NCBI RefSeq assembly: GCF_002554795.1
Contig: NZ_PDEQ01000004.1
Location: 1 to 64,000 of the forward strand
Direction: 5' to 3'
From: Longibacter salinarum
GTDB lineage: Bacteria; Bacteroidota; Rhodothermia; Rhodothermales; Salinibacteraceae
DNA: 64,000 bases
The position numbers and the translations under genes are program-made. The notes under the pieces are model-generated. The model worked only from the letters and a program-made list of their open reading frames with translations. It was not told where the DNA came from and did not search any database. This document shows, in pieces, positions 50,296 through 62,021 of this stretch (the stretch's first letter is position 1; every line of letters starts with the position of its first letter).

Positions 50296-51042
50296 ATGTC
50301 GTCGTCCCCTGCCCCCTCCGCCGCTTCGTCGGACGCGGTGTCTTCGAATTCGGCGCCCTCGCTCGTCACCTTCGACGATGTGGCCAAAACCTACGAGATG
50401 GGATCGGAAACGGTCACAGCGCTAACGGATATTTCTATCACGATTCCGCAGGGTCAGTTTGTCGCGGTCGTCGGCCCGAGCGGCTCCGGTAAATCCACGT
50501 TTCTGCACTTGCTGTCGGCCATGGATCGACCAAGCCGCGGCCGGATCACGGTCGGCGACTGGGACCTTGGCTCCCTCGACCGACAACAGCAGGCCCGCTT
50601 CCGCCGAAGCATGATCGGCATCATCTTCCAGCAGTTTCATCTGGTGCCGACGATGACGGCGCGAGAAAACGTGGCCCTTCCGCTTATCCTGGCCGGCGTT
50701 GCTCCTTCGGACCGACAGGGACGCGCAGCCAACGCGCTCGACATTGTGGGACTCGGTGACCGCATGGATCATCGCCCGGCGGAGCTCTCCGGCGGCGAAC
50801 AGCAGCGCGTGGCCGTCGCCCGGGCGCTCGTCACAGATCCGCCGCTCCTCTTGGCGGATGAACCAACCGGCAACCTCGACTCTGAAACCGGAGAGCAAAT
50901 TATCGACCTGCTTGAACACGTCCACCACGAGCAAGGGCGAACGGTCGTGGTCGTCACCCACCACTTCGACGAAGTTCAGCACGTTACCGAACGCGTTTTG
51001 AAACTCCGCGACGGCCGCATCCTGGCCGACGAAGATTGCTAA
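50296..51042 (+). CDS. ABC transporter ATP-binding protein, LolD/MacB type
   Basis: 248 residues. After a Ser/Ala-rich N-terminus (1-24), Walker [11 protein letters not shown] is at about 60-69, Q-loop FQQFHLVP, signature [15 protein letters not shown], Walker [14 protein letters not shown] and H-loop VVVTHH. The [15 protein letters not shown] and DEPTGNLDS segments are those of the LolD/MacB/FtsE group that powers extrusion of lipoproteins, drugs or peptides without spanning transport. The permease gene of the same class lies at 53040, separated by hisE and hisG, and is the likely partner. Confidence 0.92.
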
Positions 51043-51512
51043 ATCCGGTGCTTGATGGGAAGGTTTTTTGCGAAACCACGCCCACCCTTCAGGAGGCCGT
51101 AGCATATCGCTCCGTCCCCCGTCGTGCCAGGCCGCCGCTTCCGTGGGGCCGGTGCATCGCCCATATGGCGGCGATCGGCGTGCCTCCACGCCCCACGGCC
51201 CCGTCCGTCCACGAGATCACGGCCGCGCTCGCAGGCTGTTCAGCCCGTAGATGCGTTTCGATCCGGAACGGTCGGCAGGACGCGGACAATTCCACCCTCC
51301 AGCGGGGACCGCCCGTTGTCTATTCCGGCTACGTGGGTTCTCCTCCCCCGTCGTCCTCTGCGAATTCTGAGACAAACGTCCGGTACGCCCTGTGCGAACC
51401 GATCTGTGCCGCCTATTCTGTGTTTAGCGTCGCGAAGCCGAATACCCGGCGACATACGACGTGGTCATCTGCCTCTCCATGTTGTCGCTCGTTTAATCTC
51501 CATCGCTCGCGT
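51043..51512. other. 470-bp gap upstream of hisE, nothing recognised
   Basis: The hisE frame is open upstream through most of it but the encoded residues (Arg/Pro/Ser/Cys-rich) are typical of non-coding GC-rich DNA. No histidine-rich leader peptide, T-box or attenuator was seen. Confidence 0.5.
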
Positions 51513-51776
51513 ATGAAACGATTCGAAGAGCTGTTTGCCGAACTCCAGGAAAAAGTCGACCGACAGGATCCGGAATCCGGCACTGTGAAAGCAGTGAATG
51601 CAGGCTCTCATGCGATCGGCAAGAAAATCCTCGAGGAAGCCGGAGAGGTGTGGATGGCGTCCCAGCACGAAGGACGCCAGCGGACGGCAGAAGAAATCTC
51701 GCAGCTTCTCTATCACGTGCAGTGCATGATGATTGCCTGCGACCTCGACCTGGACGATATCTATAAACACTTGTAG
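51513..51776 (+). CDS. hisE: Phosphoribosyl-ATP pyrophosphatase
   Basis: 87 residues. HisE hydrolyses phosphoribosyl-ATP to phosphoribosyl-AMP, step two of histidine synthesis. The MazG-like fold signature is visible: [19 protein letters not shown] with the metal-binding Glu pair, then [15 protein letters not shown]. Stand-alone HisE of about 90-110 residues is normal where it is not fused to HisI. It is followed 165 bp later by hisG; the rest of the his pathway is not in the window. Confidence 0.92.
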
Positions 51777-51808
51777 CGAAGCTATAACAATCTGTAGCCT
51801 TGCTACAG
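51774..51808 (+). repeat. Tandem small hairpins between hisE and hisG
   Basis: TGTAGCgaaGCTATA is followed, after AACAATC, by CTGTAGCcttGCTACAG (51792-51808), a perfect 7-bp stem with a 3-base loop. The first overlaps the hisE stop codon. They could be a weak terminator or processing site between the two his genes. Confidence 0.4.
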
Positions 51809-51941
51809 CATTTATAGCCCAGAGAAAAGCCGTTTCAACCTCCAGCCGTAAGCGCCTCAAGCCCGACGGCGCCCGCGGATGCCGGGCTGGCGTCCGCCCG
51901 TTTTGCCCTCTACCTCACGACTCTCTCAACCCCACCCACCT

Positions 51942-52793
51942 ATGCTTCAGATTGCCCTCCCTAACAAAGGAGCCCTCTCCGACGGAGCCGTCACCCTAGC
52001 CGAGGAGGCCGGGTATCATGCGAAGCGCCGTGGCCGGGAATTGTCGGTCCGGGATGCGGACAACGACGTCGAGTTCATCTTCCTCCGCCCCCGCGACATC
52101 GCGACGTACGTCAGCAAGGGCATCGTCGAGCTCGGTGTGACCGGCCTGGACCTGCTCCATGACAGCGGCGCGGACGTCAAGCAGTTGATGCCGCTCAAAT
52201 TCGGAAAGGCCCGGTTCTGCTACGCCGTCCCGAAAGAAGGCGGACTCACGCCCGATACGTTCACCGCCGACACTCGCATCGCGACCTCCTACGACAGCCT
52301 CGTCCGCCAGGACTTGGAGCGTCGCGGCATTGACGCGAAGGTGGTGCACCTCGACGGCGCCGTGGAAATTTCGATCCAGCTTGGCGTTGCTGACGCGATT
52401 GCCGATGTCGTGCAGACCGGCCGCACGATCGATGAGGCAGGACTTACGACGACGGGCGATCCGATCCTGAACACTCAGGCCATCCTGATCGCCCAGAACA
52501 ACGATGTCGCAGCGCTTGAACCGGCACGGCTGTTCGCCGAGCGCATCAAAGGCATTCTTGTAGCGCGCGAGCACATCGTCGTGGAGTACGACCTGCCGAA
52601 GGAGCACTTGGCAAAGGCAAAAGACATCACACCGGGCATCGAGTCTCCCACCGTGTCGCCGCTAAGCAAGGACGGCTGGGTCGCTGTGAAGGCGATGGCC
52701 CGGCAGGGCGACATCAACCGGATCATGGACGAACTGACGGCGATTGGCGCGAAAGGCATTATCGTGACCGACATCCGCACGTGCCGAATCTGA
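51942..52793 (+). CDS. hisG: ATP phosphoribosyltransferase, long form
   Basis: 283 residues, first step of histidine synthesis. MLQIALPNKGALSDGA is the family N-terminus, DIATYVSKGIVELGVTGLDLL and LDGAVEISIQLGVADAIADVVQTG the catalytic signatures; residues about 205-283 are the regulatory ACT-like domain (SPTVSPLSKDGWVAV), so this is the HisZ-independent long form with histidine feedback. ATG 51942 gives the normal N-terminus; 21 residues further upstream in frame are rejected. Confidence 0.95.
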   Translation: MLQIALPNKGALSDGAVTLAEEAGYHAKRRGRELSVRDADNDVEFIFLRPRDIATYVSKGIVELGVTGLDLLHDSGADVKQLMPLKFGKARFCYAVPKEGGLTPDTFTADTRIATSYDSLVRQDLERRGIDAKVVHLDGAVEISIQLGVADAIADVVQTGRTIDEAGLTTTGDPILNTQAILIAQNNDVAALEPARLFAERIKGILVAREHIVVEYDLPKEHLAKAKDITPGIESPTVSPLSKDGWVAVKAMARQGDINRIMDELTAIGAKGIIVTDIRTCRI

Positions 52794-52823
52794 CACTCCC
52801 GACTCGATTCTCGCAATGACGAT

Positions 52824-52867
52824 CGAACCCGACCGGGCATCTCGCCTCCGGTCGGGTTCTCCTTTTG
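52824..52867 (+). terminator. Intrinsic terminator after hisG
   Basis: Stem GAACCCGACC/GGTCGGGTTC with a 16-base loop followed by TCCTTTT, 31 bases after the stop codon. It separates the his genes from the permease gene. Confidence 0.9.
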
Positions 52868-53039
52868 AACCACGTACTGCGTTCTCCACCTCGCCGGCCG
52901 ACTCCTTCCTGGCAAACGGAACGGGAAATTCGAATTTGTCCTGCCGTCTTCGCTCAACCCCGGATGTCCTCGGGCGTGTGTAGACGAGCAGCCGCCTTAC
53001 TGCCTCCGACGATTCATCCTGTACGCCTCCTCCATCTTC

Positions 53040-54395
53040 ATGCGCGTAGCCGACCTCTTCAAGCTGGCGTGGGACAACCTCCGCCGAAACCAAACACGTA
53101 GCGTCCTGACTGTGATCGGCGTCCTGATCGGTGTCGCCGCGCTCATGACGCTCCTCGCCTACGGTTCGGGACTGCAGCAGAACGCCCAGCGTGAGTTCAA
53201 CGCCCTGGAGCTGTATAACACCCTCCGCGTCACGTCCAACCGCATTCCCGCCCTGACCGGACCGGGGCGTGTCGCCATGCAGGTCGCAGACACGGCCAGC
53301 ATGACGGGCCAGGTTGCACTCACCGATAGTCTCGTGCACGAAATCGAGAAGATCGACGGCGTGCTCGCAGCCTATCCGGAAGACAACTTCCCCGGTAAGC
53401 TTCGTGCCAACGGGCGCGAGATCGTCATCAATGCGGAGGCGATCCCGATGGAGTTTCAGCAGATCGACCTGTATCGGCCCAAGTATGGCAACTTTTTCGA
53501 CCAGCCCGACCAGGCCGGCGTCTTGATCAGCCCATCAATGGCGAAACGACTCGGCTTCGAAACGCCAGAATCAGCCGTCGGGCAACCCGTCGAGATCATC
53601 ACGGCTGCGTTCAACATGTCGAAGATGCAGAACCTTGCCCAGATGTTTGGCGGCGGTCTGAACGCGCTACCGATGGGACAGCACAGCTATGACGCGACGG
53701 TGTCCGGCATCATCAAGGACGACCAGCAACCGCTGACCGGCTTCACGCGGGCCCTCGTCCCCGTCCAGTACGCGCAGTCGCTCGACAAAATCTCCTTTTT
53801 CTCGACACTCGATCTGCTTTTTCGAAATGCCGAGACGCTCGACGGGTATCAGGCAGTTCGCGTGCAACTCAAAGACGCCAGTACACTCCCAGAAGTACGT
53901 CAGGAGATTGAAAAGATGGGCGTGTACGCAACCAGCTTCCGGGAGCAGTTCGACCGCCTAGAGCAGCTGTTCCTGATTATGGACCTCGCGCTCGGCATCA
54001 TCGGCTTTATCGCTATGATTGTCGCAACCATCGGCATCGCCAACACGGTAATGATGAACGTTCGCGAGCGCTACCGAGAGATCGGCGTCATGATGGCGGT
54101 CGGCGGCGACGCGAAGGACCTGCAGCGGCTCTTTGTCATCGAAAGCGCGACGCTCGGCGCGCTCGGTGGAATTGCGGGTCTGATCTTCGGCGGGTTGATC
54201 GTAATCGGTCTCGACGCGGCGGTCAACATGTATCTCGACTCCCTCGGCGTGCCGCCCATCACGGTCTTCAGCACGTCCGCGGCGATGATGGCCGTCATTT
54301 TCGTCGGGGCGGTGCTGATCAGCCTGCTCGCGGGTGTCTTTCCCGCCCGGCGGGCAGCACGCATCGAGCCGGCAGAGGCGCTCCGGAGCACCTGA
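53040..54395 (+). CDS. ABC transporter permease, MacB/FtsX type
   Basis: 451 residues. One N-terminal membrane helix (about 18-40, RSVLTVIGVLIGVAALMTLL), a large extracytoplasmic MacB-periplasmic-core-like domain (about 41-300), then three C-terminal FtsX helices (about 320-445) with NTVMMNVRERYREIGVMMAVGG and the closing PARRAARIEPAEALRS motif. These permeases act with LolD/MacB-type ATPases; the one at 50296 fits. Whether it moves lipoproteins, peptides or drugs cannot be told; an outer membrane factor and adaptor gene are not adjacent. Confidence 0.92.
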   Translation: MRVADLFKLAWDNLRRNQTRSVLTVIGVLIGVAALMTLLAYGSGLQQNAQREFNALELYNTLRVTSNRIPALTGPGRVAMQVADTASMTGQVALTDSLVHEIEKIDGVLAAYPEDNFPGKLRANGREIVINAEAIPMEFQQIDLYRPKYGNFFDQPDQAGVLISPSMAKRLGFETPESAVGQPVEIITAAFNMSKMQNLAQMFGGGLNALPMGQHSYDATVSGIIKDDQQPLTGFTRALVPVQYAQSLDKISFFSTLDLLFRNAETLDGYQAVRVQLKDASTLPEVRQEIEKMGVYATSFREQFDRLEQLFLIMDLALGIIGFIAMIVATIGIANTVMMNVRERYREIGVMMAVGGDAKDLQRLFVIESATLGALGGIAGLIFGGLIVIGLDAAVNMYLDSLGVPPITVFSTSAAMMAVIFVGAVLISLLAGVFPARRAARIEPAEALRST

Positions 54396-54530: not shown

Positions 54531-57014
54531 CTAGCGCGGCTCGACCGGGTACAGTCCCGGCGGAATCATAACAAACGGGGCCGGCTGATTCTCGACGGCC
54601 GTGCGAATGAATGCCTCGGCCGGCGACTCCGTCTCACTGTCACCGGAGCCACGTGCAATGAGGCGGAATGGGAAGGGCAGTACCCGGCTCAGATTCCAGA
54701 AACCCGACTCTGGATTTACCTCTACGATCTCCGCGCGATCGGCCGGGACACCGGAGGCACGCCGTGCGAGATCGATGGCATCGAGGAAGCCGCCAATCTC
54801 ATCCACGAGTCCGACCTGTTTGCCGTCGATGCCCGAGTAGATTCGTCCTTCCGCAACCTCTCGGATATGGGTTTCGGTCGTATCTCGCCCCTCGGCCACC
54901 AGTTGTACGAAATCGGTATAGAACGATTGAAACAGCTCCTCCACACGCTCTCGCTCGTCCGTCCGCAGCGGACGTGCCGGAATCTGCGCCCCGATAATCG
55001 GAAGTCGATATCCGGTGAACAGATCGGCACGACGGCCCTCCTGCACGACATCGTAGGTCTGTCCGGTTTTCTCGCTCCAGCCGTCGGCGTAGAGCCAGCC
55101 GCCAATAACGCCGATGGATCCAGTGACGGTCGTCGGCGTGGCGAGAATCGTGTCGGCGTACGCCGAGATCCAGTAGCCGCCAGATCCCGCGACCTGTCCC
55201 TGAGAAACGATGACCGGCTTCTCGGCCGCCACCTCTTTTAGCGCCTGAGCGACGAGATCGGAGGCCATACCGTCCCCTCCCGGCGAGTCCACACGGAAAA
55301 CGACGGCCGACACATCATCACGCGACTTGAGGTCACGGATCGATTTATGCAGCGTGCGTGCCTCGATGCCGGTGTCCATCGACGTCGGACCGATCCCATA
55401 CACCACAGCGATCTTGTCCGGTTCGCTCCAGGCGCGTGTCGCAGTCGCGACTTCGTCTAGCTCCTCGGCATCGATCATGCGAGTGCCATGCCCGAGCAAA
55501 TCGTCTACAAACTGATCGCGATCATGCCAGCGCCCCAATGAGTCAACCAGACCAGCCGATTGTGCATCTCTGGCCGTGAGAATGGTTTTCTCGTCGATTA
55601 GGAGATCCAGAGAGTCGCGGTCGATGTCCCGATCGTTTGACATGCCACGAACGACGGTAGCGTACACGTCCTCGAGGTACTCCGCGCGTTGCGTGCTGTC
55701 GGCTTCTGAGAACTCTTTTCTGGAAAGGGTCTCTGCCGCGGACTTAAACTCGAAGAAGCGCCACTCATCGAACTCCAGACCGAGCTTGTCTAGGGTGCCG
55801 TCGAGGTACGTACGGCTCAGCGCGTACCCGGGCAGGATCATATTTCCTCGCGGATCCTGAACCACAACGTCCGCCGCACTCGCGAGGTAGTAATCCGTCA
55901 TCTGGGCATTTTCCAGATAGGCGACCACCGTGATGCCGCGGTCTGATGCCGTCTGCAAGGCGCGCCGCAACTCCCAGGCTTTCGCCGTCCCCAGTTTTAC
56001 GCCGCTGAGATTGAGCGTAATTACGCGAACTGTTCCCGTTTCAGCCGCCTGCCGAATAGTGCGCAACACCTCATAGTACCGTGGCGGCGCGCTGCCAAAG
56101 AAACTCGCGATCCTGGTCTTGCGATAGGGCAACGACCCCGACAGGTCGAGGTCGATGCGCTGACGCCCCGATGCGACGGCGCGATAAAGCGCGCTGGGCT
56201 GATGCGATCCCATCCGGATCCGACTGACCTGCCCGCTGTAGTCCCCGTCCGTGTCGATGCCCGAGAAGGATTCGACGCCGCCCCGGCCGACGTCGATGCG
56301 GAGCCCGATGGTCTGTGTCTCATTCTCGAAAAAGCGCCCGAAGAGTTGCACGCCGTCGACAATCTCTACCGCGCCACCTGCACTCCAGAGCGCATCCTGG
56401 ATCGCCTCGCCATCCTCCATGGACGCATCTGCGAAGAGCGTCAGCCGCGACGTGCCGAATGGACGCACCCCGATCTCCCCGACGACCTCCCAGTCGTCCG
56501 TCTCCAGTGCCAGGTTACCGACAGCTCCGACGGACAGATAGCGCGTTGGCCGAAAGACAGAGCCCGCCACGAAGCGGTTGTACCGGCCGAGTGCCGTCGC
56601 ATCGCCGCCAAAGCCCTGATAGGCAATGCCAATCGCACCACTCCGCGTACCGCCACTCAGGCCAATGTGGTACCGATTCACCTCGAGCGGTCCACGATTC
56701 AACCGAGTGAAGCTGGCGGAGAGGCCGCCCAGGTTGGAAAAGACTCCCCAGTTCTGCATCGAGCCCACGTCCGTTCCATCGCTGCTCCAGATGAACGCCG
56801 TTCCAGATCCAACCATTCTTGCGAGTGCAGGATTTGCCGTACCGAACAGTCCGTCACCGAAGGAAGCCGGCGGCGCGGAAAGGAAGAACGATTGATCGTA
56901 GTACCGCGCCATATCCGGCGATCCTGCCTGCGCCATCACCCCGACGGGACGAACGAGCAAACTGGTTAGAATCAGAAGGCACGCTACCGACACCCCACGC
57001 AGAAACGCTGACAT
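54531..57014 (-). CDS. Signal peptide peptidase SppA-like S49 protease fused to an N-terminal barrel-like domain
   Basis: 827 residues. A signal peptide (to GVMAQA) is followed by about 260 residues (30-290) of alternating beta strands with aromatic girdles (FGTANPALARM, NRYHIGLSGGTR, RYLSVGAVGNLALE), resembling outer-membrane barrel proteins. Then come two S49 halves: the first with the catalytic Lys424 in EFKSAAETLSRKEFS, the second with nucleophile Ser611 in QVAGSGGYWISAYAD, the same Lys/Ser split as in the 67-kDa E. coli SppA. SppA degrades cleaved signal peptides in the inner membrane; here the fusion suggests an outer-membrane or periplasmic location. ATG 57014 begins the signal peptide; the upstream in-frame ATG at 57071 is less likely. 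Confidence 0.85.
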   Translation of the reverse strand: MSAFLRGVSVACLLILTSLLVRPVGVMAQAGSPDMARYYDQSFFLSAPPASFGDGLFGTANPALARMVGSGTAFIWSSDGTDVGSMQNWGVFSNLGGLSASFTRLNRGPLEVNRYHIGLSGGTRSGAIGIAYQGFGGDATALGRYNRFVAGSVFRPTRYLSVGAVGNLALETDDWEVVGEIGVRPFGTSRLTLFADASMEDGEAIQDALWSAGGAVEIVDGVQLFGRFFENETQTIGLRIDVGRGGVESFSGIDTDGDYSGQVSRIRMGSHQPSALYRAVASGRQRIDLDLSGSLPYRKTRIASFFGSAPPRYYEVLRTIRQAAETGTVRVITLNLSGVKLGTAKAWELRRALQTASDRGITVVAYLENAQMTDYYLASAADVVVQDPRGNMILPGYALSRTYLDGTLDKLGLEFDEWRFFEFKSAAETLSRKEFSEADSTQRAEYLEDVYATVVRGMSNDRDIDRDSLDLLIDEKTILTARDAQSAGLVDSLGRWHDRDQFVDDLLGHGTRMIDAEELDEVATATRAWSEPDKIAVVYGIGPTSMDTGIEARTLHKSIRDLKSRDDVSAVVFRVDSPGGDGMASDLVAQALKEVAAEKPVIVSQGQVAGSGGYWISAYADTILATPTTVTGSIGVIGGWLYADGWSEKTGQTYDVVQEGRRADLFTGYRLPIIGAQIPARPLRTDERERVEELFQSFYTDFVQLVAEGRDTTETHIREVAEGRIYSGIDGKQVGLVDEIGGFLDAIDLARRASGVPADRAEIVEVNPESGFWNLSRVLPFPFRLIARGSGDSETESPAEAFIRTAVENQPAPFVMIPPGLYPVEPR

Positions 57015-57310: not shown

Positions 57311-57784
57311 ATGCCGAACGCTTCGATCCGCGTCGTTGACGTCTACCCGTATCGCCTTACGCCCGAAGCGGGAATGGGTGTTGAATTACTGCTCTTGCGC
57401 CGGGCGGACGGCACCTCGTACGAAGGAACCTGGCGCATGGTCGGTGGCGGAATCGATTCGGGAGAGGCCGCCTGGGAAACCGCGAAGCGGGAATTGCTCG
57501 AAGAAACGGGATGCACGCCGGATCGGCTCTGGGCATTGCCATCGGTCAATACATTCTACGAGTGGAAAACAGACCGCATTAGCCTGACGCCGGCGTTTGC
57601 CGCTGAATTGCCCGACGCGAACATCACTCTCAACGCCGAACACGACGAGTACCGGTGGTTCACGCCAGCCGATGCCTGCAGCGAACTGGCGTGGCCCGAA
57701 CAGCAGCGACTCGCCCTGCTCACCGCGGAGATGGCGACGAGCCCGATTCCGCCCTCGCTCCACATCCCATCCGACGTCAAATGA
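57311..57784 (+). CDS. NUDIX hydrolase
   Basis: 157 residues. The Nudix box GGGIDSGEAAWETAKRELLEETG (about 45-67) is complete; read in part as GGGIDSGEAAWETAKRE and LLEETG. It hydrolyses a nucleoside diphosphate linked to another moiety; the specific substrate is not inferable, though DVYPYRL at the start and EHDEYRWFTPADA at the end are like the dATP/dihydroneopterin-triphosphate group. It precedes the M28 peptidase gene by 49 bp. Confidence 0.9.
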   Translation: MPNASIRVVDVYPYRLTPEAGMGVELLLLRRADGTSYEGTWRMVGGGIDSGEAAWETAKRELLEETGCTPDRLWALPSVNTFYEWKTDRISLTPAFAAELPDANITLNAEHDEYRWFTPADACSELAWPEQQRLALLTAEMATSPIPPSLHIPSDVK

Positions 57785-57833
57785 GCGACGCCCGACGTCC
57801 CAATCGCACGTTTTTCCCCCGGCCCTTTCTCTT

Positions 57834-59954
57834 ATGTTTCCACGCTTCATCGCCGTCGTTGTCGCTCTCGCTGTCATTCTCACCTTCAGCGCGCAGCCAC
57901 AACGCGTTGCCGCGCAGCCCCTCACCGGCTTCTCCCCATCCTCGTCCGATGCCCAGCAGACGTGCGAGTCGAGACTCACGGATATTCCCACGGCATCAGC
58001 ATTTCGCGCTCACCTGCAACGGCTGACGAAGGAGCCGCATCCCGCCGGTTCGGCAGCCAATGAGCGGGTCGCTGCCTACATCGACTCCGTCATGAACGCG
58101 GCGGGCCTGGACGTCGAGCGCTACCCGTACGACCTCTACATGCCCTCTCCGGATGCGGCGCACAATATCGACGTGGAGCTCGTCACTCCGATTCGCCAGC
58201 CGCTCAATCGACAGGAATACATCCTCGAAGAGGATCGGTTTTCGAATCACCCGAACCTCGATCCCGCCTGGAACGCGTATTCCGGGTCGGGCGACGTGAC
58301 AGCAGAAGTCGTGTACGCCAATTATGGGCGCAAGGAGGATTTCGAGTGGCTCGCCGAAAACGACATTTCCGTCAAGGGGAAAATTGTTCTCGCGCGCTAC
58401 GGTGGCAACTTCCGCGGCTTCAAGGCCAAGTACGCGGAGGAAGCGGGCGCTGCGGGCCTGATCATGTACACGGATCCAGCGGACGGTGGATATGCCGATG
58501 GCCTACCGTATCCCGAGGGGCGCCACGCGAGTGAAAGCACGATCCAGCGTGGCTCGGTGCTCACGCCCCTGTCTGGCGATCCGCTCACCCCGGCCGGGCC
58601 GTCGCTGCCGAACGGTGAGGGGGCCGAACGACTCTCCCCTGAGGAGGCCGATCTCCCGACGATCCCCGTGACCCCGCTTCCGCACGCCTCGACGAAGAAA
58701 ATCCTCGAGCGAATGGACGGGCAGCCGGTCCCGCAGGGATGGCAGGGCGCGCTCCCGTTCGCGTACCGCGTGACCGGCGGCTCCGAGCTCACGGTTCGTC
58801 TGCGCGTCGACCAGCCGAAGCAGATGGTGCGCGCGTCGAACGTGATCGGTCGCATCGAGGGGAGCGAGTACCCGGAGCAGTGGATCGTTCTCGGAGCACA
58901 CTACGACGCGTGGACGTTCGGTGCCGTTGACCCGAACAGCGGCACGGCGAGCCTTCTCCTCATCGCAGAGGCGCTCGGGGAGATGGCTAAAAACGGCTGT
59001 CGCCTCCGTCGCTCGATCCTCATCGGCCACTGGGATGCAGAAGAGTACGGTATTCTCGGCTCAACCGAATGGGTGGAGCAGTTGCAGGACGAACTAACAA
59101 CGGGCGGCGTGGCGTACATTAACGCGGATGCAGCCGTCTCCGGCGATCGCTTCGGCGGTGCTGCAGCTCCTTCCCTCAAGCAGCCGCTCCTCGACGCGGC
59201 GGCCACGGTCGATCATCCGTCGTCCGACTCACTTACCGTGCTCGAGCGCGCCCAGACACGGGCGGATGACGACAGCATTCTCGGCAATCTCGGCGGCGGA
59301 TCGGACCACGTCGGCTTTTACACGTTCGCGGGCGTTCCCTCGCTGGGCGCCGGCATGCGAGGCTCGGCACCGATTTACCATAGTGCCTACGACAATTTCG
59401 CGTGGTATGAGCGCTTCGCCGACACGACCTTCGTCCACGGCCCCGCCCTGGCTCGCGTCGACGGCATTCTTGCCCTTCGCCTCGCCAACGCGGAGGTGCT
59501 TCCGTACGATGTCGTTCGCTACGCGACGGACCTGCGCTCTCACCTCGATGACCTCGCAGAACGTGCCAGTGAACAGGACGTGGAAGCTGACTTCACGGCT
59601 CTCGATTCGGCAATCGACTCGCTTCGCGATGCCGCGACGACCTTTACAGAGGCACGCGATGCGGCTCTCGCAAACGATAGAACGGTCCCGAACCTCGAAC
59701 AGGTAAACGAGGCGATGATCGGGCTCGAAAAGGCGTTTCTTCACCCCCCAGGGCTCCAGAACCACCCGCTCAAACGGTCGCTGTATGCATCGCCCGACCC
59801 GTTCAGCGGATACGCCTCGTGGATGCTCCCGGGACTTCGCTACGAGGTCGAAGCCGGCACCGCCTCCGGCCTTGCCCGGTGGGTCGATATCTACGTCCGT
59901 GCCGTGAACGACCTGACCGGTCGCGTGCAGAAAGCGATCGACCTTCTCCAGTAA
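57834..59954 (+). CDS. Secreted M28 metallopeptidase, glutamate carboxypeptidase II-like
   Basis: 706 residues. A signal peptide ends RVAAQP. Order: N-terminal peptidase part, protease-associated domain insertion (about 130-300, GKIVLARYGGNFRGFKAKYAEEAGAAG in part), M28 catalytic core, and a C-terminal transferrin-receptor-like dimerisation domain (about 580-706). Zinc ligands and base are visible: His in LGAHYDAW, Asp in GAVDPNSGTAS, Glu-Glu in WDAEEYGILGSTEW, Asp in NADAAVSG, His in YHSAYDNF. This set and domain order match PSMA/GCPII, which trims C-terminal acidic residues. The enzyme is exported; the specificity is inferred only. Confidence 0.92.
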   Translation: MFPRFIAVVVALAVILTFSAQPQRVAAQPLTGFSPSSSDAQQTCESRLTDIPTASAFRAHLQRLTKEPHPAGSAANERVAAYIDSVMNAAGLDVERYPYDLYMPSPDAAHNIDVELVTPIRQPLNRQEYILEEDRFSNHPNLDPAWNAYSGSGDVTAEVVYANYGRKEDFEWLAENDISVKGKIVLARYGGNFRGFKAKYAEEAGAAGLIMYTDPADGGYADGLPYPEGRHASESTIQRGSVLTPLSGDPLTPAGPSLPNGEGAERLSPEEADLPTIPVTPLPHASTKKILERMDGQPVPQGWQGALPFAYRVTGGSELTVRLRVDQPKQMVRASNVIGRIEGSEYPEQWIVLGAHYDAWTFGAVDPNSGTASLLLIAEALGEMAKNGCRLRRSILIGHWDAEEYGILGSTEWVEQLQDELTTGGVAYINADAAVSGDRFGGAAAPSLKQPLLDAAATVDHPSSDSLTVLERAQTRADDDSILGNLGGGSDHVGFYTFAGVPSLGAGMRGSAPIYHSAYDNFAWYERFADTTFVHGPALARVDGILALRLANAEVLPYDVVRYATDLRSHLDDLAERASEQDVEADFTALDSAIDSLRDAATTFTEARDAALANDRTVPNLEQVNEAMIGLEKAFLHPPGLQNHPLKRSLYASPDPFSGYASWMLPGLRYEVEAGTASGLARWVDIYVRAVNDLTGRVQKAIDLLQ

Positions 59955-60556: not shown

Positions 60557-61939
60557 CTAGTCGGTTGAAAGGGTATCCGTTAACGTTGTGTCCTGAAGCA
60601 TCGAGTCAGACGATGCCGAATCACGGGACATGGTGTCGCGCGAGAGGCTATCGGTCGTCAGCGTGTCCACTGCGATCGTGTCCGGGAGAGGCGGCGGGAC
60701 GGACAGCAGTAACCGGTCCACGGTGCCGCGACTGCAGAGAAACAGATCCGGGCGGCCATCCGAGTCAAAGTCGGCCGCCTCCGAATCAAGCCCGCGCCCG
60801 GTGATAATCTTCGGCAGAGCGAAGCGTGTGGCGTCCGAAAAGCGCCCACCGCCATCGTTCAGTAAAATGCCGTAGGGTGCGCTCTTAATGGATTCACCGT
60901 CGAAGAGCACGTTCGACGTCACGATGTCGAGGTCGCCGTCAAGGTCGAGATCGACGAAGTCTGCATCGAGCGAACTCTGGTCGTCGATCGGTATGCGAGC
61001 CGCGGTCGCGTCCCGAAACCGGCCGCTACCATCGTTTAGCAGGAGCCGATTCTGGCGCCGGGCATCTTCGACAAAAAGCCGAACATTGGCGAAGATCAGG
61101 TCGAGGTCGCCGTCGCCGTCGACGTCTCCGAAATCAGCCTCCCGGGTTTCCTCCGGGACATCGAGAATGGGCAGAGCTCTCGGGTCAGCATCCCGAAAGC
61201 GGCCACGACCGTCGTTCAATAGCAGGCGGTTGACGTCTTCGTTTCCGACAATGAGATCCAGATCGCCGTCACCATCGACATCCCCGAGTTCAAGATCCTG
61301 CGTGACATCATCGCGACTTGGTAGGCGCGACGCCGTTTCATCCGAGAAACGACCGGTACTATCGTTGATGAGCGCACGGTTTTGCCCGTTGTTGCCGACA
61401 AGAAGATCTGGAAAGCCGTTATCGTCCAGGTCGACCACGATAACAGCGTTCGAGGTGCCTTCCACCGGCCAGCGATCGCCCGCGTCCCTGAAGTGGCCCG
61501 AGCCATCGTTCAGGTAGAACTCGTTGACCGTGTCGTCCTCCGTGACGACCACAATGTCGAGGTATCCGTCGCCGTCAAAATCGGCGACAGCTACATCTTC
61601 GCTGTCACGATCGTGCGAGGGAATGCGTTCGGAAGCGTCCCGGAAATGACCGGTTCCGTCTCCGAGAAGCAGGATATTCGGCTTAAACTCGTTGGCAATG
61701 ACCACATCGAGCGCGCCGTCTCCATTCACGTCTGCCACGGCCGCGTCCATGCTGTATCCCGTGAGCTCCGACGTCGGGAGGTGCTTCACGGTCGCGTCTC
61801 GAAAGAGCATCGTGGTATCGTCGGCGACGCCTGACGACTGTGCGCTGCCGGTGCTTCCAGTTGCACCGGCAAAGGTCAGCACACCAGCGACCAATGCCAG
61901 CAAGGCGAACGAAATGGACGACGCAGCGGAACGGGTCAT
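60557..61939 (-). CDS. Exported FG-GAP/VCBS repeat protein
   Basis: 460 residues. Signal peptide within 1-33. Six or seven repeats of about 60 residues follow, each with a calcium-binding-like DxDGDGxxDLxxxN core (DVNGDGALDVVIAN, DFDGDGYLDIVVV, DVDGDGDLDLIVGN, DVDGDGDLDLIFAN and others), which build a beta-propeller seen in integrin-alpha-like and adhesion proteins. The last 36 residues are a Ser/Thr/Asp-rich run (DTLTTDSLSRDTMSRD...). The start MTRSAASS at 61939 begins the signal peptide. Ligand unknown. Confidence 0.88.
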   Translation of the reverse strand: MTRSAASSISFALLALVAGVLTFAGATGSTGSAQSSGVADDTTMLFRDATVKHLPTSELTGYSMDAAVADVNGDGALDVVIANEFKPNILLLGDGTGHFRDASERIPSHDRDSEDVAVADFDGDGYLDIVVVTEDDTVNEFYLNDGSGHFRDAGDRWPVEGTSNAVIVVDLDDNGFPDLLVGNNGQNRALINDSTGRFSDETASRLPSRDDVTQDLELGDVDGDGDLDLIVGNEDVNRLLLNDGRGRFRDADPRALPILDVPEETREADFGDVDGDGDLDLIFANVRLFVEDARRQNRLLLNDGSGRFRDATAARIPIDDQSSLDADFVDLDLDGDLDIVTSNVLFDGESIKSAPYGILLNDGGGRFSDATRFALPKIITGRGLDSEAADFDSDGRPDLFLCSRGTVDRLLLSVPPPLPDTIAVDTLTTDSLSRDTMSRDSASSDSMLQDTTLTDTLSTD

Positions 61940-62021
61940 GGTTCGGAAACCGGCGGCGGGGGTGTCATCGGGGAGACACCGGGTGCACGCCAAACCGCAG
62001 CCGTCCGTTCCAGCCAGCGGG

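Follow-up and report, generated by a model that had tools for sequence, protein, structure and literature searches.

A predicted outer-membrane β-barrel fused to an intact SppA-type S49 protease in Longibacter salinarum and its relatives

We analyzed a 64,000-nucleotide stretch of the Longibacter salinarum genome (contig NZ_PDEQ01000004.1, positions 1 to 64,000; hereafter, the window), in which positions 54531-57014 of the minus strand hold a reading frame of 827 codons plus a stop, with an ATG start and no internal stop. The product runs from a signal peptide through a β-domain (residues about 36-272) to a tandem S49 module like that of E. coli SppA. An earlier note, made from the DNA letters, had described a tandem S49 protease with an intact catalytic dyad behind a signal peptide and a barrel-like region, and this was confirmed by the frame, Pfam and NCBIfam profiles, the E. 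coli SppA structure 3bez, and structural models. Its estimate of about 260 residues of strands needed trimming: the strands are predicted, although they span nearer 200 residues (71-272) and follow a hatch-like stretch at ~36-70. The features are as follows.

54531-57014, minus strand: whole gene for the putative barrel-anchored SppA, 827 aa (open frame)
56931-57014, minus strand: signal peptide, residues 1-28, the sole stretch of the protein with transmembrane-like hydrophobicity
56805-56909, minus strand: hatch-like N-terminal stretch, residues 36-70, aligning structurally to the FadL-family N terminus
56826-56834, minus strand: NPA motif, residues 61-63, in 51 of the 53 N-domains with letters there
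56199-56804, minus strand: predicted outer-membrane β-barrel, residues 71-272 (AlphaFold2 models, structural matches)
56289-56312, minus strand: β-signal-like strand TIGLRIDV, residues 235-242; its pattern, picked after the alignment was seen, fits 60 of 62 N-domains
55425-56162, minus strand: first S49 half, residues 285-530, with Lys424 (sequence and fold alignment to 3bez)
55743-55745, minus strand: Lys424, general base, in register with SppA and kept across the alignment
54714-55424, minus strand: second S49 half, residues 531-767, with Ser611 (Pfam, NCBIfam and 3bez alignments)
55182-55184, minus strand: Ser611, nucleophile, in register with SppA and kept across the alignment
54534-54713, minus strand: C-terminal tail, residues 768-827, closing in a proline-rich end that is conserved (alignment of relatives)

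Residues 1-30 read as a cleavable signal peptide, with no other hydrophobic anchor predicted in the protein, and signal peptidase I would be expected to cut after VMA-28. At the opposite end, the tail (residues 768-827; 54534-54713, minus strand) closes with a conserved run rich in prolines, which reads QPAP..(I/L)PPG.Y in most of the complete relatives aligned. Elsewhere in the window, 57597-59954 (plus strand) encodes a large peptidase of family M28 that also has PA and transferrin-receptor-like dimerisation domains, a layout that we take to be like that of glutamate carboxypeptidase II. At 50296-54395 (plus strand), PRA-PH and HisG of histidine biosynthesis stand between an ABC ATPase and a permease of MacB/FtsX type on the same strand, and 60557-61993 (minus strand) encodes an FG-GAP protein of six repeats with a C-terminal tail of threonine/serine/aspartate near-repeats. 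No conserved neighborhood was found when ten window genes were compared with nine loci (L014-L022); the one match, of an ABC ATPase in L022, seems to reflect family-wide resemblance.

The protease half was readily assigned. Pfam PF01343 matched the 827-aa protein in two stretches with 177.4 bits against a cut-off of 24.9, and NCBIfam TIGR00706 (SppA_dom) scored 175.5 bits, above its cut-off of 155.45. E. coli SppA (3bez) aligned to residues 313-753 with an E-value of 1.9e-40, and its fold matched the model with a Z-score of 16.2. The earlier note had placed the catalytic pair at Lys424 and Ser611; both positions are right and in register with SppA, with the Lys and Ser kept in 55/55 barrel proteins and 18/18 canonical SppAs compared. 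The protein shares with SppA 67K (protease IV, E. coli 3bez/3bf0) a tandem S49 layout whose first half supplies the Lys and whose second half supplies the Ser. It differs in having a signal peptide and ~240 residues of putative hatch and barrel in place of the inner-membrane anchor, and in falling under the cut-off for TIGR00705 (SppA_67K; 240.3 bits against 311.45). The canonical SppA of the same genome (G000:C1) carries a hydrophobic stretch at residues 3-40. By eye, the S49 part starts similarly in the two proteins (LDLSGSLP in the barrel form, LDIQGPIP in the canonical one), which suggests that the barrel occupies the place of the canonical transmembrane anchor.

We modeled the protein with AlphaFold2 in two runs, each with ten aligned sequences, one of the full-length chain and one of residues 28-298 only. 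Both runs agree on a run of strands in the N-domain. The full-length model has a mean pLDDT of 55.7 and is poor across the S49 part, so it does not give the placement of barrel relative to protease, while the N-domain model reaches a mean pLDDT of 75.0 (strands about 72-87) and a pTM of 0.73. With the whole model, Foldseek returned E. coli SppA first and then outer-membrane barrels, along with a few unrelated proteins in weaker rows; with the N-domain alone, the leading matches were membrane barrels. A structural aligner placed the FadL family on top, with Z-scores of 16-22 over ~220-240 residues and an rmsd of 3.2-4.2. TodX (6z38; Z 21.9 and 20.7) and PorV (8gl6_F; 21.0 and 19.2) were joined among the top structural matches by FadL and TbuX (FadL/TodX Z about 17-22), and BamG scored 16-19. 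OmpG, KdgM and NanC came next, at about 10-17. Structure prediction of this region, a check proposed in the earlier note, returned a barrel.

The NPA motif of FadL occurs in 51/53 N-domains with letters at that position (9/62 rows are gapped) and is invariant in an alignment of 14 FadL proteins of relatives. Residues 235-242 follow a polar-x-G-x-x-hydrophobic-x-hydrophobic (TxGxxΦxΦ-like) pattern, which we take to be the β-signal of the BAM literature; the 60/62 matches were counted by hand, and a looser form fits 21/21 N-domains. Pfam gave no family name to 21 N-domains (PF03349 0/21; PorV PF19572 0/21), with a single weak HP_OMP match (E 0.001). A profile search of PDB sequences found no homologue of the N-domain, the best row being a T-cell receptor at E 0.069, and hhalign returned probabilities of 2.7% against FadL (14-row alignment) and 0.5% against PorV (9-row alignment). 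For lack of profile-level homology to either, we claim the fold and not membership of the FadL family. The likeness to FadL/Toluene_X, PorV and BamG lies in the predicted fold, the NPA motif and the position of the N-terminal hatch. Unlike the FadL/Toluene_X family, the protein lacks a Pfam or profile-level match and carries a C-terminal protease, and its N-domain of ~240 residues is short beside the 345-445 of solved FadL-family chains.

A soluble or peripheral β-rich N-domain, which would make the protein a free periplasmic peptidase, could be argued from the moderate model confidence and from strand alternation in the sequence that goes only modestly beyond chance (P 0.028, 21-row alignment). 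We consider this very unlikely, as the leading structural matches are membrane barrels and both the NPA and β-signal-like motifs are present. That the N-domain is predicted to be an outer-membrane barrel, fused to an intact SppA, is well supported by the models and matches.

The side of the membrane on which the protease would lie depends on the number of strands, since an even count, 12 or 14 alike, places the S49 part in the periplasm and an odd count does not. DSSP assigned 13 strands in both AlphaFold2 models, the twelfth being 20 residues long. We interpret the barrel as best fitted by an even number. The models would fit either 12 strands ending at the β-signal-like strand (235-242) and followed by a hairpin, or a FadL-like set of 14 strands that turns tightly at GRGG. 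Covariation across 62 sequences gave no strand-pair signal, control hairpins included.

PorU-PorV of the type 9 secretion system pairs a FadL-like barrel with a surface protease, and PorV is present in the Longibacter genome. This precedent, together with the 13 strands in both models, would favor the same barrel with the protease outside, through an odd strand count or a flipped insertion, trimming surface or extracellular proteins. The two differ: PorU-PorV comprises two proteins with a surface cysteine protease, whereas here a Ser/Lys protease shares one chain with the barrel and is probably periplasmic. Most turns in the N-domain model span two residues and alternate with long loops, the pattern of a barrel that starts and ends in the periplasm; the structural alignments extend to the last strand of the even-stranded FadL, OmpG and KdgM, and the β-signal-like strand closes a 12-strand count. 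Because motif, loop pattern and alignments all favor an even count, we regard an outward-facing protease as unlikely; E. coli SppA, moreover, acts in the periplasm (PMC9360617). Of the earlier proposal, an outer-membrane protease remains likely given the predicted barrel and the intact SppA fused to it, but surface proteolysis is not favored.

To see how far the fusion extends, we searched for the N-domain in related genomes and beyond. Matches were found in 10/27 genomes of the source organism's family (single-sequence search), 30/244 of its class and 38/394 drawn from the Bacteroidota, spread over several families; seven of the last 38 are weaker than E 1e-20, one of them (G036) in a 326-residue frame. 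The earlier note had also called for a search in other phyla, and the fusion is present in one, KSB1, in 36/82 genomes. A contig scan gave nine loci, among them Salinivenus, Longimonas and a KSB1 bacterium; plasmid records gave no match. A fusion artefact can be set aside: 90 locus frames (same-gene repeats included) carry both N-domain and S49, and a contig end truncates the two with the N-domain only (L013, L051), such that the N-domain is fused to S49 at every locus whose contig is long enough. No description of an SppA-barrel fusion was found in titles and abstract openings of the open-licence PMC literature, though absence there does not prove that nothing has been published.

We then built a phylogeny from the tandem S49 module of 55 barrel and 18 canonical proteins, 73 in all (partials and duplicates dropped; short 36K-type SppAs absent). 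A branch supported at 100/100 sets all the barrel proteins apart from the 18 canonical SppAs, and N-domain and S49 distances across 44 proteins are correlated (Mantel r 0.87; 0/2000 permutations as high). The single barrel clade and the correlated distances fit one fusion within the sample, and the barrel-SppA genes covered here appear to share a single origin. The source family contributes eight sequences; these fall among those of KSB1 (100/99) and not beside other families of the class, which suggests lateral movement between phyla.

A PF01343 search of 54 chosen genomes, 49 with the barrel form and five family members without it, addressed what other S49 proteins accompany the fusion. In eight of the 49, both PF01343 stretches lie in the barrel protein, the only S49 protein detected; a further genome, G421, differs from these by an additional stretch that scores under the cut-off. 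The eight include three single-contig genomes of 98-99% completeness and two from KSB1 whose completeness is not known. Other barrel-bearing genomes retain an additional S49 protein, canonical or short, as does Longibacter salinarum with its canonical SppA, and the five family members without the barrel form have only a canonical tandem protein.

What computation gives is the domain order, the catalytic dyad, the predicted barrel, its conservation, the single clade and the genomes without a further S49 protein; outer-membrane location, orientation, oligomeric state and substrates are our inference. Sec would export the protein and the signal peptide would be removed. BAM would then insert and fold the FadL-like barrel at the outer membrane, the hatch with its NPA motif sitting within it, as model and motif suggest, and the chain would exit on the periplasmic side, where the tandem S49 module would hang, probably as an SppA-like tetramer. 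Ser611-Lys424 dyads may then cut small or unfolded peptides beside the outer membrane, with shed signal peptides, lipoprotein fragments and failed outer-membrane proteins as candidate substrates. Such an enzyme would supplement the inner-membrane SppA in Longibacter and may substitute for it in lineages that yielded no further S49 protein. According to PMC9360617, E. coli SppA is a tetramer of the inner membrane and breaks down signal peptides once these are released into the periplasm, and it is by analogy with this enzyme that we propose an outer-membrane-tethered, peptide-cutting version. We put the probability of this reading, a periplasmic protease tethered to the outer membrane and degrading peptides there, at roughly 0.7.

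The barrel might also serve as a conduit tied to the protease, through which cut peptides exit or hydrophobic peptides enter by way of barrel and hatch. A transport-barrel fold with a conserved hatch motif, fused to S49 wherever the contig allows, speaks for such a device. The fold itself does not imply a channel, however, as BamG and PorV, both with a FadL-like fold, are described in PMC12578637 as serving for attachment and for shuttling substrates, respectively, and the barrel is short for the family. We therefore judge a conduit to be quite unlikely; with FadL-like barrels serving as scaffolds in Bacteroidota (BamG; PMC12578637), transport through the barrel is possible but not required by the tethered-protease reading.

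SppA is the textbook inner-membrane enzyme that clears signal peptides. Tentatively, and with more doubt than confidence, we suggest that some bacteria shifted the whole S49 signal-peptide-peptidase function from the inner to the outer membrane when SppA became fused, once and long ago, to a FadL-like barrel, whose hatch-bearing structure may even pass cut peptides across. In several near-complete genomes the barrel form is the sole S49 protein found, so either clearing takes place at the outer membrane there or SppA is needed for something else, and either answer bears on the role of SppA. If the tethered-protease reading is true, Bacteroidota and KSB1 would gain an integral outer-membrane protease in their proteostasis, and its barrel would join PorV and BamG as a third scaffold of FadL-like fold.
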